Made by a program: the position numbers and the translations under genes. A stretch of DNA of 64,000 nucleotides. Source: Actinoplanes nipponensis. Lineage in GTDB: Bacteria; Actinomycetota; Actinomycetes; Mycobacteriales; Micromonosporaceae. Below the pieces are notes generated by a model. That model searched no databases, was not told where the DNA came from, and saw only the letters and a list, made by a program, of their open reading frames with translations. Shown here in pieces: positions 1 to 58,282 of the stretch; within the stretch, counting starts at the first letter, position 1, and each line of letters starts with the position of its first letter. The stretch spans positions 1-64,000 of the forward strand of contig NZ_BOMQ01000011.1 in NCBI RefSeq assembly GCF_016862275.1. The letters run 5' to 3'.

Positions 1-1067
1 CTGGTGCCCCGCGCGGTGTCCTGGATCGTCGTCACGCCCGCGGGCGGCGTCGCGGCCTTGTAGAGCGCCTGGTACTTCGCCGACGCCAGCGGCATGTTCA
101 CCGGGTTCCACAGCGAGTTGCGGCCGTCGTTGCCGTCGTTGCCGAAGTACGCCTCGTAGGCGATGTCCGCGGCGTTCTGCCGGAAGAAGTCGTACATGTG
201 CTGGATGTAGCCGGGCTGGTCGCCGTGGCCGGGCGCCGCCTCGCCGTCCTCGTAGGTAGTGGTGTAGAGGCCCCATTCCGGGAAGGAGAGCTTCTTGCCG
301 TGCCGGCGGGCGAACGCCAGCCAGGCGTTCATGCCCTGCTCGGGGTCGTTGAGCGCCCAGTTCCAGTCGACCCAGCTGTCGTAGGTGTCGACGCCGATGA
401 TGTCGACGTACTCGTCGCCCGGGTAGGCCACGTCCTGCAGCTCGGCGGTGTCCGGGATGCCGTTGCTCTGCCCCCGGTTGACGTTCCAGTCGAACTTGAG
501 GTCCGGCGCGACCGCCCGGACCGCGGTGACCACTCGCCGGAAACAGTCCCGGTACGCCACGGCGTCGCCGCCCCAGCGGAACCAGGCGCCGTTCATCTCC
601 CAGCCCAGGCGGATGACGGAGGAGCCCAGGCCGGCGTCGGTCAGGGTGTGGCCGAACGTCGTCCATTTCTGGTCGTACTCACCGGCCGCGCACCGGTCCA
701 GGGACGCGTCCTCCTGCTCGGGAATGGGCGGGATGCCGTAGACCATGGTGTACGGCTGTCCGGTGAAACTCGAGTACGCCGGGCCCGGTTCGACGAAGTC
801 GTCCCAGGTCGCCCGGGACGGAAAGGTCGAGACGAGGTCGAGTGGCCGCTGCCGGTACTGGCCGAAGGCGGCATAGCGCTGCGTGTCGTAGCCGGGAACG
901 AATACGCCACTGGCCCAGGCGCCGCCGGATCGGCTCGGCATCTTGTAGCCGTCATTGCCGGCGGCCGCCGCGCTCGTACCGCCGAAGGCCGCACCGGTGG
1001 CCATCGCGGCGAGCGTCACGATCGCGACCAGCGCGCGCCGGGCGGACGGTTTCCTGCGTGAAGACAT
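1..1067 (-). CDS. Secreted GH26 beta-mannanase-like glycoside hydrolase, C-terminus cut off by window edge
   Basis: The frame is open from an ATG at 1067 to the window start, giving the N-terminal 355 residues. An AGGAG ribosome-binding site lies 8 bases upstream. The protein begins with a basic, hydrophobic signal peptide ending near TSAAAAG. The body shows the two GH26 active-site signatures: WEMNGAWFRWGG, whose Glu is the expected acid/base, and SFPEWGLY, whose Glu is the expected nucleophile. GH26 enzymes cleave beta-1,4-mannan or, less often, beta-1,3-xylan or lichenan; substrate cannot be fixed from sequence. It is probably exported to attack plant mannan. It lies 167 bases downstream of the SARP-GH16 fusion on the same strand, so that regulator may control it (inference). 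The missing C-terminus may carry a carbohydrate-binding module. Confidence 0.88.
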   Translation of the reverse strand, partial: MSSRRKPSARRALVAIVTLAAMATGAAFGGTSAAAAGNDGYKMPSRSGGAWASGVFVPGYDTQRYAAFGQYRQRPLDLVSTFPSRATWDDFVEPGPAYSSFTGQPYTMVYGIPPIPEQEDASLDRCAAGEYDQKWTTFGHTLTDAGLGSSVIRLGWEMNGAWFRWGGDAVAYRDCFRRVVTAVRAVAPDLKFDWNVNRGQSNGIPDTAELQDVAYPGDEYVDIIGVDTYDSWVDWNWALNDPEQGMNAWLAFARRHGKKLSFPEWGLYTTTYEDGEAAPGHGDQPGYIQHMYDFFRQNAADIAYEAYFGNDGNDGRNSLWNPVNMPLASAKYQALYKAATPPAGVTTIQDTARGT

Positions 1068-1234
1068 CAGGCTGCTCCTGGAGTGCATGAGGGGACGGGC
1101 GGCCGGCCGACATGCCCCTGTTGCCGTCATTCACCCCGGCCGGCTCGTGCTGCGGCGACAGCGTCGCAGGACCCGCCGACGGCTCGGCTGCGGAATTGCT
1201 GAGGTCCCGGCTGGGCAGGGCAGATGCGCCGGGG

Positions 1235-2851
1235 TCAGCTCGTGTACCGCGCCCAGTCCACGTGCGCGGTCACCTGATCGGGCGTGGCCGGATTCGGCGC
1301 CGGGACCGGACCCTCCGGTCCGGGAATGACCTGTACGTACAGGAACATCGGGACCGTCGGAATGGCCACCCGGGTGGGCAGGGTGCGGGTGTCGAAGATG
1401 ACCGCGCCATTGAGGGAGACGGTGACGAATGTGGCCCGCCATTCGATGGCGTACGTGTTCCAGGCGGTGAAGTCCCCGGCCACCGCAGCGCCGTCGATCG
1501 GGCTGCCACCCGCGCCGCGCACGACCGGATACATGATTCTGCGCGCGCCGTCGTCGAGCCTGGCCAAGGTCAGGAAACCCCAGCCCGCGGTGTGCTCGTC
1601 CACCTCCGAGTACAGCCCGATGACCGGTGCGTAACCGGCGCCGGCGTCGAACTTGGCCCGCACCTCCCACTTTCCGTAGGTGCGTTTGACGCCGTGCTCC
1701 AGGCACCAGCACACCGAGCCGGCCATGTTGCCGGTCCCGGTCGCGCTGCGGCCCACCCCGTTGATCTGCAGCTCGCCCCCGCTGACCCGCACCATGCTGG
1801 GTGACCACGACGATCCGTTGTGCTGCTGCGTCTCGTGGGCGTCCCACTGCTGCGGCGCCAGCCCGGTGCCGGAGAAGTCCTCGGTGACGGTGAAGTGGTC
1901 CGGGCCGGGCGGGCCGGCGGGCCGGTCGGCCGGCCGGAGCAGGGCGACGGCGCCGAAGGCGACGGCGAGGGTGACCACCAGGGCGAAAGCCCCGGCGAGC
2001 AGGCGCCGCCGGGCGGGACGGGCCCGTGCCGGTTCCGCGGGCGCCGGGGTGTCCGGCGCCTCGGACTGCTTCGCCGGCGGGGCGGCGGCCGGCGGGGTGG
2101 CGGCCGGCGGGGCGTCGGCGCGCAGGATGCTCTCGTAGAGCTGCATCAGTTGCGGGCTCGGGTCGGTGCCGTACTCGGTGGCGAGAAGCTGCCGGTGCGA
2201 GCGGCACCGCTCCAGCGCCTCGGTCGGCCGGCCCGTCGCCGCCAGCGCCCGCACCAACGCCAGGACCAGCGGTTCCACCAGGGGATGGGCCTCGGCCAGC
2301 GTGGTCAGGGGGGCCAGCACCGCCGTCGCGTGGCCGGCGGCCACCTCCGCCTCGGCCCACTCCGCCCGGGCCGTCAGCAGTTCCCCGGTCAGCTGTTCAC
2401 GGGTGCGCACCGCCCAGGCGCCCTGCACCCCGGTCAGCGGGTCGCCGCGGTGCAGCTCCACGGCCTGCCGCAGGAGAGCGGCGCGCTCCTCGGGCGTACC
2501 GGACGGCATCCGGGCCCGAACGACCAGCTCGCGGAAGCGGAAGAGGTCGACCTGATCCGGCCGGGCGGCCAGCCGGTAACCGCCCGGCTGGTTGATCACG
2601 GTGACCGTCGCGTCGACGAAGGAGGTCTCCAGCATCCGGCGGAGCCGGGTGATGTAGGTGCCCAGGGTCCGGGCCGCCTGCCCGGGCGGGCCGTCACCCC
2701 AGACCCGGTCGATCAGGGTCGTCGTCGACACCACGCGGCCCGCGTCGACCGTCAACGCCGCCAGCACCGCCAGGCGGCGCGGCTCGCCGGTGTGGACGAC
2801 GCCGTCGTCGGCGACGACTTCCACCGGTCCGAGCAGCCGCAGCTGCGCCAC
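1235..2851 (-). CDS. Membrane-spanning SARP transcription factor fused to an extracytoplasmic GH16-like domain
   Basis: 538 residues from a GTG start with a GGGGAGG site 8 bases upstream. Residues 1-95 form an OmpR/AfsR-type winged helix (LRLLGPVEV, then TLGTYITRLRRML). Residues about 100-245 form the bacterial transcriptional activation (BTAD) helical domain of SARPs. A Pro/Ala linker follows, then one transmembrane helix at about 284-305 preceded by RPARRR, which predicts the N-terminus inside and the C-terminus outside. Residues 322-538 resemble a GH16/concanavalin beta-sandwich. The GH16 motif ExDxxE is degenerate: Glu416 and Asp418 are present, but the general acid position (421) is Thr. 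The outer domain therefore looks like a glucan-binding sensor rather than an enzyme. Overall layout resembles CadC/ToxR one-component regulators. Function as a sugar-responsive activator is inference. Confidence 0.85.
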   Translation of the reverse strand: MAQLRLLGPVEVVADDGVVHTGEPRRLAVLAALTVDAGRVVSTTTLIDRVWGDGPPGQAARTLGTYITRLRRMLETSFVDATVTVINQPGGYRLAARPDQVDLFRFRELVVRARMPSGTPEERAALLRQAVELHRGDPLTGVQGAWAVRTREQLTGELLTARAEWAEAEVAAGHATAVLAPLTTLAEAHPLVEPLVLALVRALAATGRPTEALERCRSHRQLLATEYGTDPSPQLMQLYESILRADAPPAATPPAAAPPAKQSEAPDTPAPAEPARARPARRRLLAGAFALVVTLAVAFGAVALLRPADRPAGPPGPDHFTVTEDFSGTGLAPQQWDAHETQQHNGSSWSPSMVRVSGGELQINGVGRSATGTGNMAGSVCWCLEHGVKRTYGKWEVRAKFDAGAGYAPVIGLYSEVDEHTAGWGFLTLARLDDGARRIMYPVVRGAGGSPIDGAAVAGDFTAWNTYAIEWRATFVTVSLNGAVIFDTRTLPTRVAIPTVPMFLYVQVIPGPEGPVPAPNPATPDQVTAHVDWARYTS

Positions 2852-3312
2852 CGTGCCACCTCCCCGTTCGAACCGCCGGAAGCCCGCACGGCCCGCGCCA
2901 CCCTAGCAACCGGTGGACGGCGGGGGCCGGTCCCGCACCGCCGATGGTCGCGGCCGGGTCGGAGCGGTCGCTTGCGTTATTGACAAGCGGCAATGTGCAT
3001 GCGTCATTTCACGATAGGGATGCGGCCGGGAAAAGTGTTACAGCGCATCCGCCGAGGAAGTCGGTAAAGCCTTTCCGACTGACGCTCTTGAATGTCTGGA
3101 AACATTCTGGCAATGTCCGGGTGCAGGCGTCACCGCTGTCGCCGCACCGTGACCTCGGCCCGGCCCGGCAGCGATGGACGGGCGTGTGACGGTGCCGCTC
3201 CCGATCCCCACCCTTTCCTCCGACCGGCCGGCACCGGCCCGCCGGGCAGCCACCCGCGCGGGCAGACGGCACCGCCGCGCCCCGATCCGACCACACCGAG
3301 CAGGGAGTACAC
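2852..3312. other. Divergent intergenic region between the SARP-GH16 gene and the RCC1 gene
   Basis: No convincing coding frame is present; the short frames here lack ribosome-binding sites and domain similarity. It contains a TTGACA hexamer at 2980-2985, without a clear -10 partner, and the conserved dyad at 3085-3113 described separately. It is relatively AT-rich for this genome around 2970-3115, as expected for a promoter zone serving the leftward SARP gene and the rightward RCC1 gene. Confidence 0.5.
3085..3113 (+). promoter_or_regulatory. 29-bp conserved dyad element, copy 1 (GAATGT-N6-ACATTC)
   Basis: This segment matches 27152-27180 (opposite strand) at 28 of 29 positions. Its core is an inverted repeat, GAATGT-N6-ACATTC, preceded by CTCTT and followed by CTGGCAA. 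It sits about 200 bases before the RCC1 protein start, reading toward it. The second copy reads toward an SGNH esterase/GH27 operon. Such conservation between two non-coding sites suggests a shared regulator-binding site or promoter. No known regulator is recognised. Confidence 0.6.
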
Positions 3313-4524
3313 ATGAAACGCCGCTCCGCCTCCGGGCATACCCACCGTCGCTGGCGCCGGGTCGCGCACGGCATCGTCACCGCGCTGGCCACGGCGACCG
3401 GGATCGTCGCGCTGAGCATCACCGGCCTGGCCGGCCCGGCCGGCGCGAGCGCCGCCGCGCCGAGCGCCGCGGCGGTCTCCGAGGTGGCCACCGGTTACGG
3501 GCACACCTGCGCGATCCGCGTCGACGGCAGCCTGTGGTGCTGGGGCAGCAACTACCTGGGCGAGCTGGGCGACGGCGGCACCACGGCCCGGACCGCCCCG
3601 GTACGCGTCGGCACGGCCACCACCTGGGCCAGCATCGACGCCGGCACCAGCTACACCTGCGCGATCCGCGTCGACGGCAGCCTGTGGTGCTGGGGCAACA
3701 ACTTCCGGGGCCAGCTCGGCGACGGCACCACCACGAACCGGACCAGCCCGGTACGCGTCGGCACGGCCACCACCTGGGCCAGTGTCAGCGCCGGCGACAG
3801 CCACACCTGCGCCACCCGCACCGACGGCACCCTGTGGTGCTGGGGCTTCAACCGTTTCGCGCAACTGGGCATCGGGTCCGACCCCTACTACGCCACTGCT
3901 CCGGTGCAGGTCGGCACGGCCACCACCTGGGCCGGTGTCACCACCGGTTATGCGCACACCTGCGCCGTCCGTACCGACGGCACCCTGTGGTGCTGGGGCA
4001 ACGCCACGGACGGACAGCTCGGCCTCGGCGACCTGACCTACCGGGACACCCCCACGCGGGTCGGCACCGCGACCACCTGGACCGGCGTCACCGCCGGCTA
4101 CGCCTACACCTGCGCGGTCCGCGCCGAGGGCACCCTGTGGTGCTGGGGCGAGAACGGGTACGGCCAACTGGGCGTCAGCGGCACGCACCAGGTCACCCCG
4201 ATCCAGGTCGGCACGACCACCACGTGGAGCACCGTCCGGGCGAGCTTCGACACGGCCTGCGCGGTCCGGACCGACGGCAGCCTGTGGTGCTGGGGCAACA
4301 ACTCGACCGGGCAGCTGGGCGACGGGACCACGACCCACCGGTCCGCCCCCACCCGGATCGGCACGGCCACCACCTGGACGCGTGACTTCGCGACCGGCTA
4401 CCACATCTGCGGCTTCCAGGCCGACGACAGCCTGTGGTGCTGGGGAAACAACGCCAACGGGCAGCTGGGCGACAACACCACCACCCAGCGTCCGGCCCCG
4501 GGCCGGGTGACCCTCCCGGCCTGA
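3313..4524 (+). CDS. Secreted RCC1-repeat beta-propeller protein
   Basis: 403 residues with a signal peptide (basic start RRWRR, hydrophobic stretch, cleavage near GASAAA). The mature part consists of seven RCC1 (ATS1) repeats of about 50 residues. Each carries the core CAxRxDGxLWCWGxNxxGQLG, so a seven-bladed propeller is expected. Each blade has two cysteines spaced to form a disulfide, which suits an exported protein. Repeats 1, 2 and 6 are nearly identical in DNA, indicating expansion by internal duplication. RCC1 propellers mediate protein or ligand binding; the bacterial secreted members have no settled function. An AGGGAGTAC stretch 5 bases upstream supports the ATG. A strong dyad terminator follows the stop. 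The conserved element at 3085-3113 links it to the alpha-galactosidase operon at 24-27 kb, so a role in plant-material use is possible but unproven. Confidence 0.85.
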
Positions 4525-55702: not shown

Positions 55703-57444
55703 CGGGCCACCGCCACGGCGGGGCGCAGCAGGGGACCGACGGCGGCCCGATGCACCGCGCTCACCGCGGCCCGCAGCGCCGCCTCGGCGGAGTCGCCGCC
55801 CAGGCCGACGCCCCAGAGCGTCGTTCCCGACACCGCGCACTCGACGTAGGCGACCACCCCGGCCCGCCCCTGGACGGTCGCCGGGTGTTCGTGGTGGTCG
55901 CGGATCGTCACGGACAGGCCCGCCTCGCCGAATGCCCTGGCCAGCGCGTCGAGCGGTCCCTCGCCGGCGGCAGCCAGCCGATGCCGGCGCCCGCCCAGGG
56001 TGAGCTCGGCCGTCAGCTCGACGGTCTGGGCGCTCGCGCCGTCCGGCCCGTACAGCGCGTAGTCGAGCAAGGGGGGTCGTGCGCCACCGAGGTACTCCGC
56101 GGTGAAGACCTGCCACAGCCGGTCCCCGTCCACCTCGCCGCCGCTGTCGTCCAGGTGCCGCTGCACCACGCCGGAGAACTCGATCTGCAGCCGGCGGGGC
56201 AGCTCCAGGTGGTGCTCGGTCTGCATCAGGTAGGCCACCCCGCCCTTGCCGGACTGCGAGTTCACCCGGATCACCGCCTCGTAGGAACGCCCGACGTCAC
56301 GCGGGTCGATCGGCAGGTACGGCATCCGCCAGGGCAGCCGGGCGGCCGGCACCCCGCTCGCGCCGGACCGGGCGCGCAGCGCCTCGAAACCCTTCTTGAT
56401 GGCGTCCTGGTGCGACCCGGAGAACGAGGTGTACACCAGGTCCCCGGCGTACGGGTGACGGTCGGGCACCGGCAGTTGGTTGCACTGCTCCACCGTGCGC
56501 CGGACCGCGTCGATGTCGGAGAGGTCGAGCTCGGGGTCGACTCCCTGGCTGAACAGGTTGAGGGCGAGCGTGACCAGGTCGACGTTGCCGGTGCGCTCGC
56601 CGTTGCCGAACAGGCAGCCCTCCACCCGGTCGGCTCCGGCGAGCACGCCCAGCTCGGCCGCCGCGACGGCCGTCCCGCGGTCGTTGTGCGGGTGCAGCGA
56701 CAGGCAGACGTGCCGGCGGCGGGTCAGCTGGTCACCGAACCACTCGACGAGATCGGCGTAGCGGTGCGGGCCGTACCGTTCGACGGTGGCCGGCAGGTTG
56801 AGCACGATCTCCCGGTCGGGCCCCGGCTGCCAGACGTCCATGACGGCCTCGCACACCTCGACGGCGAAGTCCGGCTCGGTGTCCACGACCAGCTCCGGGG
56901 AGTACTCGAAGCCCAGCACGGTGCCGGGCACCAGCTGCTGGGCCCGGCGCACGACGTGCCGGGTCGCCCGGACCGCGAGGTCACGGCAGCCGGCCCGGTC
57001 CGTGCCGAACACCACCTCGCGGAACAGCGGCGAGGTCGCGTTGTAGAGGTGGAGCGTGGCGTGCCGGGCGCCGCCGAGGCTGCGCAGCGTCGTGTCGATC
57101 AGCTCCTCGCGGGCCGGGGTCAACACGGAGATCTCGACGTCCTCGGGCACCAGGTCGTCCTCGATCAGCCGGCGCACGAATTCGTGGTCGACCCGGCTCG
57201 CGGCCGGGAAGCCCACCTCGATCTCCTTGAAGCCGAGTTCGACGGCCAGCCGGAACAGGGCGTGTTTGCGGTCCACCGACATCGGCTCGATGAGCGCCTG
57301 GTTGCCGTCGCGCAGGTCCACGGAGCACCACCGGGGCGCAGCCGTGTGCTCGGCGTCCGGCCACCGCCGCCGGCGGTTGACCAGAGCGGGGAACCGCTGG
57401 TAGCGGTGCGTCGCCATGGGGCTGGGACGCTGCCGGTTGGGCAT
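55699..57444 (-). CDS. 2-isopropylmalate synthase homologue within the polyketide cluster
   Basis: 581 residues; AGGAGGAG ahead of the ATG is one of the strongest ribosome sites in the window. HMGL-type barrel with DLRDGNQALIEPM (metal Asp and Arg), SLHPHNDRGTAVAA (metal His) and GNGERTGNVDLVTLALNL. A C-terminal LeuA regulatory domain (about 450-570) is retained. It condenses acetyl-CoA with 2-ketoisovalerate or a similar keto acid. Placed after a SARP gene and coupled to an exporter, it probably serves the pathway by raising supply of leucine-type keto acids and so of isovaleryl-type starter units, or by making another extended alpha-keto acid. A displaced housekeeping leuA is the alternative. 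Confidence 0.9.
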   Translation of the reverse strand: MPNRQRPSPMATHRYQRFPALVNRRRRWPDAEHTAAPRWCSVDLRDGNQALIEPMSVDRKHALFRLAVELGFKEIEVGFPAASRVDHEFVRRLIEDDLVPEDVEISVLTPAREELIDTTLRSLGGARHATLHLYNATSPLFREVVFGTDRAGCRDLAVRATRHVVRRAQQLVPGTVLGFEYSPELVVDTEPDFAVEVCEAVMDVWQPGPDREIVLNLPATVERYGPHRYADLVEWFGDQLTRRRHVCLSLHPHNDRGTAVAAAELGVLAGADRVEGCLFGNGERTGNVDLVTLALNLFSQGVDPELDLSDIDAVRRTVEQCNQLPVPDRHPYAGDLVYTSFSGSHQDAIKKGFEALRARSGASGVPAARLPWRMPYLPIDPRDVGRSYEAVIRVNSQSGKGGVAYLMQTEHHLELPRRLQIEFSGVVQRHLDDSGGEVDGDRLWQVFTAEYLGGARPPLLDYALYGPDGASAQTVELTAELTLGGRRHRLAAAGEGPLDALARAFGEAGLSVTIRDHHEHPATVQGRAGVVAYVECAVSGTTLWGVGLGGDSAEAALRAAVSAVHRAAVGPLLRPAVAVAR

Positions 57445-57472
57445 GACTCCTCCTGCCGGGGTGGTGATCGGG

Positions 57473-58282
57473 TCAGGACGCCGCGGCCAGCGTGGGCCGC
57501 ATTCCCAGGCCGAACCCGGGAGCCTCGGGGGAGTCGTAGGTCAGCACCTCGCGCTGCAACCGCTGCAGCTCCGGCTGCGGGTCGAGGCCGAGCTGGTCGT
57601 GCAGCAGCACCCGTAGGTTCTGGTACGCCTGCAGCGCCTCGCTGCGCCGCCCGCACCGGCTCAGCGCCGCGATGAGCTGACCGTGGAACCACTCGTTCAG
57701 CGGGTGGGCGGCCACCAGTGAGCGCAGCTCGCCGATCAGCTCGTGGTGCCGGCCCAGCTCGGCGTCGGCGAGGATGCGCAGTTCCAGCGTGCGCAGCCGT
57801 TCCTCCTCCAGGTGGACGGCGTGCGACTCCAGCAGCCGGCCGGTGAGGACGTTGGCCAGTGCCGGGCCGCGCCACAGGTCGAGTGCCCGGCGCAGCACGG
57901 CGGCGGCTTCCGCGGTGCGGCCGTTGTCCAGCAGCTGGCGGCCCTGCCAGGACATCGTCTGGAAGGAATGCGCGTCGATCTGCTCCGGATCGACGTACAT
58001 CAGGTAGCCGGGCGCGGTGGTGACGAGCCACTCCGGGCGCTGCGGGGCCACCTGGTGCCGGTTGAAGCTGCGCCGCAGCTGGTAGATGTAGGTCTGGGCG
58101 GTGGTGACCGCGCTCATCGGCGGGTGCTCGCCCCACAGCTCCTCGATCAGCGCGTCGACGGAGACGACCTGGTTGGCGCGCAGCAGGAGCAGGGCCAGGA
58201 CCCGGCGGACCTTGGGCGGGGTGGGGGTGCGGTCCGTGCCCTCGCTGGTGACTTCCAGGGGACCCAGCACATTGAATTTCAT
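57473..58282 (-). CDS. SARP-family pathway activator
   Basis: 269 residues, the size of small pathway-specific SARPs (ActII-ORF4, DnrI). Winged helix 1-95 (KFNVLGPLEVTSEG, TAQTYIYQLRRSF) and BTAD 100-245 (EERLRTLELRILADAELGRHHELIGELRSLVAAHPLNEWFHGQLIAALSRCGRRSEALQAY). GGAGAATACCGTG precedes the ATG. It is expected to activate cluster promoters. It lies 28 bases before the LeuA-like gene, so the two may be co-transcribed. A large inverted repeat lies between it and the divergent UbiA gene. Confidence 0.92.
   Translation of the reverse strand: MKFNVLGPLEVTSEGTDRTPTPPKVRRVLALLLLRANQVVSVDALIEELWGEHPPMSAVTTAQTYIYQLRRSFNRHQVAPQRPEWLVTTAPGYLMYVDPEQIDAHSFQTMSWQGRQLLDNGRTAEAAAVLRRALDLWRGPALANVLTGRLLESHAVHLEEERLRTLELRILADAELGRHHELIGELRSLVAAHPLNEWFHGQLIAALSRCGRRSEALQAYQNLRVLLHDQLGLDPQPELQRLQREVLTYDSPEAPGFGLGMRPTLAAAS

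Follow-up and report, generated by a model that had tools for sequence, protein, structure and literature searches.

We find that a single gene of Actinoplanes nipponensis encodes a SARP-type transcription activator joined, through a Pro/Ala-rich linker and one predicted transmembrane helix, to a domain of GH16 fold in which all three catalytic residues are replaced. The protein probably acts at the membrane as glycan sensor and transcription activator in one, whether it signals as a whole or after proteolytic release. SARPs have been studied as soluble activators of antibiotic clusters, with inputs that are mostly unknown. A DNA-binding domain inside, one transmembrane helix and a sensor outside are combined in a single protein in the regulators CadC and ToxR. 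The window, by which we mean the whole stretch of 64,000 nucleotides that was analysed, opens contig C11 in an 8.95 Mb genome whose named relatives are Actinoplanes and Paractinoplanes species.

Domain layout and relatives of the gene

The gene (window 1235-2851, minus strand) consists of one open frame for 538 amino acids, running from a GTG start to a TGA stop with no internal stop. Pfam recognised Trans_reg_C (E 1.6e-10, residues 23-94), BTAD (E 1.6e-27, residues 101-243) and Glyco_hydro_16 (E 1.8e-5, residues 391-534, 24.7 bits against a cut-off of 22). Read from the sequence, the order of parts is a SARP winged helix (wHTH) and BTAD domain, a Pro/Ala linker, one predicted transmembrane stretch at residues 284-305 and a GH16-fold domain at residues 320-538. 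The features of the region are these:

3..1067, minus strand: gene of a secreted GH26 enzyme, downstream, a likely target (Pfam GH26 7.3e-9; runs off the contig start)
1180..1201, minus strand: conserved 22-bp block of two imperfect 11-bp direct repeats, a candidate SARP box
1235..2851, minus strand: whole gene of the predicted membrane SARP with GH16-like outer domain (538 amino acids plus stop; Pfam and relatives)
1238..1894, minus strand: GH16-fold outer domain, residues 320-538 (Pfam, PDB profile search, Foldseek, VIA-align)
1559..1576, minus strand: FLTLAR, residues 426-431, in place of the GH16 EIDxxE (49-domain alignment; HMMER alignment to 3iln)
1703..1711, minus strand: CxC mark, C381-W382-C383, specific to the membrane clade among the aligned domains
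1937..2002, minus strand: predicted transmembrane helix, residues 284-305 (Kyte-Doolittle mean 2.47)
2003..2110, minus strand: Pro/Ala-rich linker, residues 248-283, Arg-rich at its end
2123..2551, minus strand: BTAD helical domain, residues 101-243 (Pfam; model pLDDT 69-91 per 10-residue block over 151-250)
2570..2851, minus strand: OmpR-type winged helix, residues 1-94 (Pfam; AfsR DNA contacts matched)

The N-terminal OmpR-type winged helix followed by BTAD is the arrangement of a SARP, and the closest solved structures were AfsR (E 1.2e-29) and EmbR (E 1.9e-29). We compared the AfsR alignment by hand with the contacts given in PMC10936776. Both AfsR residues for which base-specific contacts are described there, T88 and R92, have identical counterparts here in T65 and R69. 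Six of the 12 AfsR DNA contacts are identical in the window protein (these two together with W74, P79, Q81 and R94, here W51, P56, Q58 and R71), two are similar (S91 and K95, here Thr and Arg) and four are different (S46, Q48, S80 and R87). The same source lists Q48, W74, P79, T88, R94 and K95 as highly conserved, and four of these six are identical here; W51, P56, T65, R69 and R71 are moreover invariant across seven full-length sequences, the window protein included. Among the RNA polymerase contacts, AfsR R62, D71, R240, L243, E246, D250 and L263 are kept as R39, D48, R220, L223, E226, D230 and L243, E76 is changed to Asp, and R59, T63, E68, E77, R173, D245, L247 and V249 differ. Mutations of R59, D71, E76 and R173 are reported to lower activation by AfsR (PMC10936776); the window protein has D36, D48, D53 and Q153 there, one identical (D71), one similar and two different. 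Judged in this way the SARP half looks functional, with a specificity of its own, and the polymerase contacts leave room for doubt.

Beyond the SARP half, a hydrophobic stretch stands at the position of the predicted helix in eight of the nine proteins examined, window included (means 1.68-2.47), the exception being the deletion in the relative L056. The window protein carries five Arg/Lys in the 20 residues before this stretch and two after it, the bias expected of an N-in, C-out topology. Such residues are likewise commoner on the N side in the six proteins in which the transmembrane stretch scored highest (4-6 against 1-3; window protein, L053, L055, L058, L059 and L060), the counts for L056, L057 and L061 being left out because they belong to a stretch in the wHTH. 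Since that wHTH stretch scores as high as the transmembrane one or higher in L057 (1.91 versus 1.68) and L061 (2.12 versus 1.99), hydropathy alone is weak proof of a membrane helix. Comparison of the window gene with five relatives by NG86 gave dN of 0.15-0.22 and dS of 0.41-0.79 for the wHTH, the BTAD and the GH16 domain, which are under purifying selection. The corresponding values were 24-52% identity and dN 0.38-1.03 for the linker, and 27-41% identity and dN 0.46-0.78 for the transmembrane stretch. A sequence that drifts while its hydrophobicity is kept, between folded parts that are selected, would be expected of a spacer and a membrane helix, and we infer the topology on these grounds.

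The same architecture recurs elsewhere. Our genus set comprised 67 genomes, the own genome included, and a search of the other 66 with the outer domain found close relatives in eight (E 7.1e-93 or better, 66-75% identity) and matches of only about 30% identity in six more. SARP, linker, transmembrane stretch and domain lie in one frame in six of the eight relatives (L053, L055, L057, L058, L059 and L060), a 100-N assembly gap cutting the L060 gene near its C-end. L054 has an N run inside the linker and all parts in the correct order, and L056 (P. lichenicola, on the same contig as L047) lacks residues ~148-318, and with them half of BTAD and the transmembrane stretch, in a frame that stays open. 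This in-frame loss of ~171 residues (L056:9573-10673(+), and L047) joins the DNA-binding part and half of BTAD straight to the GH16-like domain, in a single assembly. A wider family search of 354 genomes yielded four more with the domain at E 1e-30 or better. One of them, G137 from another genus, has the fusion (L061) plus a second, partial domain (L065); the other three (G342, G350 and G351) have the domain preceded by Pro-rich sequence and then a hydrophobic segment, without any SARP. The first scoring took only 7-8 candidates per genome, and these counts are therefore lower bounds. The original prediction that a complete SARP unit, a transmembrane helix and a GH16-like domain are joined in one gene is thus borne out by the intact reading frame, Pfam, hydropathy and the same fusion in relatives.

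Two of the SARP-less membrane GH16-like genes (L063:8476-9417(-) and L064:8250-9206(-), in two genomes) are each divergent from an adjoining PHB-depolymerase-like esterase gene whose product starts with a hydrophobic stretch. Within the own genome, 26 other places matched the query, and only one locus (L008/L103) has membrane segments soon after BTAD, namely three helices without an outer domain; a single hydrophobic stretch occurs deep in the ATPase region of L010, L097 and L098 and within the wHTH of L011, loci cut at their ends having been read over about 730-800 residues. The gene at L103:2991-4640(-) on contig C71 encodes this second membrane SARP, in which wHTH and BTAD are followed by a Pro-rich linker and the three hydrophobic helices with a weak helix-hairpin-helix match and no outer sensor domain. 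A further small SARP-like frame lies at the far window end (57428-58276, minus strand), with a TGA inside the matched stretch.

The outer domain and its lost active site

Several comparisons assign the outer domain to the GH16 fold. An AlphaFold model built with five sequences was of low confidence (mean pLDDT 53.4, pTM 0.59), and Foldseek with the domain model placed GH16-type structures best (E 2.9e-8, TM-scores about 0.4-0.6), the best 50 rows being all GH16-type glycanases except for a lectin domain at rank 48. VIA-align of the model with 5dze gave a Z of 15.6 and an rmsd of 3.0 over 180 residues, and a profile of 12 domains run against PDB sequences matched laminarinases (best E 4.6e-6). 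The window protein exceeds the Pfam cut-off, and its relatives lie near or below it: four that were scanned fall under (L055 21.5, L059 21.4 and L053 16.8 bits, L061 no match), and a six-frame domain search found G014, G024, G029 and G049 slightly over (22.9-23.6 bits). The GH16 Pfam match is weak or borderline in this clade.

To locate the active site we used 35 related actinobacterial domains, read as secreted, lipoprotein-like or N-anchored, in an alignment of 49 domains, with one copy of each repeated or contained domain and with X-rich rows omitted. The L065 fragment, whose N-terminal part is not seen, is among the 11 fused rows. The nucleophile position is E in 33 of the 35 related domains and F426 here (F in nine, M in one and Y in one of the fused rows). 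The Asp position is D in 33/35 and T428 here, with T in 11/11 fused rows, while the acid/base position is E in 34/35 and R431 here, with R in 11/11. In the three rows that have a transmembrane stretch only, the Asp and acid/base positions hold T or K and then G or A. The catalytic E-x-D-x-x-E is accordingly replaced by F426, T428 and R431. The original prediction had proposed that the acid/base Glu is replaced by Thr421; the catalytic loss stands, the position is R431, and all three members of the triad are gone. Thr421 itself sits in a variable loop before the motif, as the HMMER alignment lays GEIDIAE of 3iln over GfltlaR and the 49-domain alignment agrees. Going by these alignments, the outer domain descends from enzymes and cannot be an ordinary GH16 hydrolase, and the case that had been set against the prediction, an active hydrolase, is made unlikely by the loss of all three catalytic residues.

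Other changes accompany this loss. The former catalytic region is rewritten, with the WP of LWP lost in the Actinoplanes members, and aromatic residues, W395, Y407 and W464 among them, are retained. The C381/C383 pair is present in 10/10 fused rows that have letters there and in 3/3 rows with a transmembrane stretch only, and in none of the 35 others; the pair (window 1703-1711, minus strand) could be a disulphide, a metal or a redox site. A maximum-likelihood tree of 47 of the 49 domains (two shorter than 150 residues left out, X letters removed, root for drawing only) set the CxC membrane clade apart from the others with support 100/99 and put the SARP fusions together on the same side of a 97/94 branch, the tree program warning of a possible false joining of long branches (L083 and the 13-row membrane clade). 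The simplest history suggested by these sequences is that a secreted GH16 enzyme lost catalysis and became anchored in the membrane, and that the anchored domain was then captured by a SARP.

Neighbouring genes and a candidate operator

Beside the 3' end of the SARP gene, on the same strand and 167 bases beyond it, the GH26 gene starts at 1067 after AGGAG. A secreted GH26-like or GH5 enzyme occupies this place in five of seven readable loci, window included; the other three of the ten loci are not readable on this side, as L053 has 48 bases left past the gene, L060 has its 100-N gap there and L061 has 645 bases. The neighbours in L055 and L056 are GH5 enzymes with CE2_N (below cut-off in L056). 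The neighbour in L059 combines a CE2_N-like part, below the Pfam cut-off, with a part that shares 30% identity with the window enzyme, and that in L054, which is convergent and has an N run inside, combines tandem CE2_N-like modules with a part 35% identical to that of L059. These last two have no Pfam GH26 match and are called GH26-like from pairwise alignments only, in which the motifs GWEMN and PEWG or AEFS line up; we take these motifs to hold the GH26 catalytic Glu. No enzyme of this kind adjoins the gene in L057 or L058, and tblastn found no enzyme remains there; the next same-strand gene of L057, ~720 bases on, encodes an Rv2525c-type glycoside-hydrolase-like protein with a peptidoglycan-binding domain and was counted as a no. 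In L060 a GH26-like gene lies ~5 kb upstream of the SARP gene (L060:3060-4073(+)), the downstream side being hidden by the gap.

Since there are only 5-10 Pfam GH26 matches per genome in the seven genomes searched, the repeated adjacency is unlikely to be chance, with the reservation that the loci are not independent. Among the neighbours originally put forward as targets, the GH26 gene is supported as a likely one. The RCC1 and GH127 genes are not: they are not conserved neighbours in the nine ortholog loci, where comparison with the first 16 kb of the window (L053 and L061 being short or one-sided) gave no GH127 relative and a single RCC1-like match, in L058 (40% over 103 residues, ~7.5 kb from the SARP gene). 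The repeat block described below has no copy near these two genes.

Just past the stop codon of the SARP gene, a block with the sequence CARCnnnTCCn CAGYCnnnCCn, its two copies lying 11 bp apart, is common to the window, L055, L056, L058 and L059; it is carried by four of the five enzyme-adjoining loci. SARP boxes are described as 22-bp pairs of 11-bp direct repeats (PMC10936776), and by its sequence the block has this geometry and is a candidate operator. A lag of 11 gave the best self-match among lags 4-18 (0.43 over the whole block, 0.53 within the 22-mers), and a half-site identity as high as the one observed arose in 1.1% of 20,000 column shufflings (p 0.011). A strict pattern found the block beside the gene in 5/5 genomes tried and at three further places in two of them, control matches numbering five in all, and a PWM gave the window block a score of 31.6, the runner-up within the window reaching 13.8; the 22-mer was chosen by eye, the PWM includes the window copy, and both pattern and PWM were built from the very loci they find. 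L058 keeps the block without an enzyme, and the block may therefore be part of the SARP transcript, at its 3' end; L054 has the convergent enzyme and lacks the block. Strong hairpins stand at its place in L053, L054 and L057, and Rfam matched no RNA element in 1000-3400. A short stretch upstream of the start codon, common to seven loci, includes a TASGGT- or TAGAGT-like hexamer, and no repeats were seen in it by eye.

Mechanism, alternatives and comparison with known systems

The mechanism we propose runs as follows. A single helix would tether the cytoplasmic SARP half (wHTH and BTAD) to the membrane's inner face, and the outer half, a former GH16 beta-glycanase that has lost its active site, would use its cleft to bind an extracellular polysaccharide or oligosaccharide. 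Ligand binding would lead paired SARP units to bind the two 11-bp direct repeats and, once bound, to activate the adjoining gene of a secreted GH26 or GH5 enzyme. As to the ligand, the GH16 origin suggests a beta-glucan-like compound, and the GH26-like and GH5 neighbours suggest at least as much a beta-mannan or another hemicellulose. More tentatively, these genes may form a class of transmembrane SARPs in which a dead GH16 domain, marked by the fixed Thr/Arg and CxC, is a polysaccharide receptor that controls the adjoining hemicellulase gene through a 22-bp SARP box.

How the signal would cross the membrane admits a second reading, which overlaps with the first and differs in the activation step: the outer domain would sense a glycan or the state of the wall, and cleavage in or near the transmembrane helix would free a soluble SARP. 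ECF52 factors of Actinobacteria, which have a transmembrane helix, a Pro-rich extension and a carbohydrate-binding domain, are expected to act after proteolysis (PMC5826349, PMC8999054), RsgI is reported to be cleaved in its transmembrane helix by RseP, the flexible linker ahead of the helix would leave the SARP intact after a cut, and L056 does without the helix altogether. Release has a substantial chance of being correct, yet the transmembrane sequence is poorly conserved, and we slightly favour signalling by the whole membrane protein.

The outer domain might instead be a structural anchor to wall or surface, or a sensor of something other than a glycan, for example of redox state through CxC, with the SARP half reporting the state of the envelope. 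This would suit the fixation of CxC in the membrane clade and its absence from the 35 enzyme-like relatives, as well as the rewriting of the catalytic region and the loss of WP in the Actinoplanes members; it is unlikely, however, given that polysaccharide-degrading enzymes adjoin in five of seven readable loci and that W395, Y407 and W464 are kept. Far less probable is a wholly cytoplasmic protein whose hydrophobic stretch does not span the membrane and whose GH16-like domain binds an imported oligosaccharide. The persistence of the L056 version without the stretch, and the equal hydrophobicity of the wHTH stretch in two relatives, agree with it, but the stretch recurs in eight of nine proteins despite 27-41% identity in the five compared, and three SARP-less relatives share the layout of Pro-rich stretch, hydrophobic stretch and domain. 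An artefact of sequencing or assembly that fused two genes, the frameshift named from the start as the other contrary case, is hardly conceivable: the same fusion recurs in separate assemblies from two genera (with close relatives in eight of 66 other genus genomes, and the fusion in one further genus) and agrees in its tree placement, the folded parts are under purifying selection, and no supporting point was found for it.

If the sensor-activator reading is true, the SARP family would gain an extracellular input by way of a carbohydrate receptor, and Actinobacteria would have, beside ECF52, a second route from a glycan outside to transcription inside. The protein would also serve as a modular receptor from which gene switches responsive to glycans could be built, and the repurposed GH16 cleft with its fixed T428 and R431 would make the question of the ligand approachable with one soluble domain. 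Our search of the open-licence literature, which for the survey of transmembrane regulators covered the main text, found no report of a membrane SARP with an outer carbohydrate domain. The words membrane, transmembrane and extracellular are absent from the SARP review PMC10972967, as are SARP and BTAD from the main text of the survey (PMC10269533), and the one paper containing both BTAD and GH16 mentions them in unrelated places and not as this architecture.

Among known systems, the SARPs AfsR and EmbR as presented in PMC10936776 share with the window protein the order of wHTH and BTAD, and it further resembles them in the kept T88/R92 pair and the candidate site of 11-bp direct repeats. After BTAD they part, as AfsR continues with NOD/TPR and EmbR has an FHA domain, whereas the window protein has the predicted transmembrane helix and the GH16-fold domain. 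With GH16 glycoside hydrolases it has the beta-sandwich fold and the sequence profile in common, but all three catalytic residues are replaced. The likeness in layout to CadC and ToxR that had been proposed is upheld, as a DNA-binding domain and at least one transmembrane segment, the latter predicted by hydropathy, occur together with the GH16-like domain in one protein; as predicted, the DNA-binding domain would lie inside and the sensor outside, as in the CadC/ToxR type. Transmembrane regulators are described as widespread among bacteria (PMC10269533). Unlike CadC and ToxR, the window protein has a BTAD after its wHTH, is actinobacterial and has an outer domain of GH16 origin. The ECF52 factor SCO4117 is alike in being an actinobacterial transcription factor tied through a transmembrane helix and a Pro-rich stretch to a carbohydrate-binding domain, but according to the accounts in PMC5826349 and PMC8999054 it is a sigma factor with a zinc-finger anti-sigma part and has neither SARP nor GH16; conversely, the window protein gave no Pfam match up to E 1 to a sigma factor domain, a zinc finger or the RsgI N-terminal domain. 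RsgI6 of Clostridium thermocellum resembles it in using a GH10 domain of very low activity as an outer polysaccharide sensor (PMC4711584), but RsgI6 holds a sigma factor, whereas here the DNA-binding activator is itself, as predicted, anchored. The architecture is thus a variant among transmembrane one-component regulators and SARPs rather than a new system.
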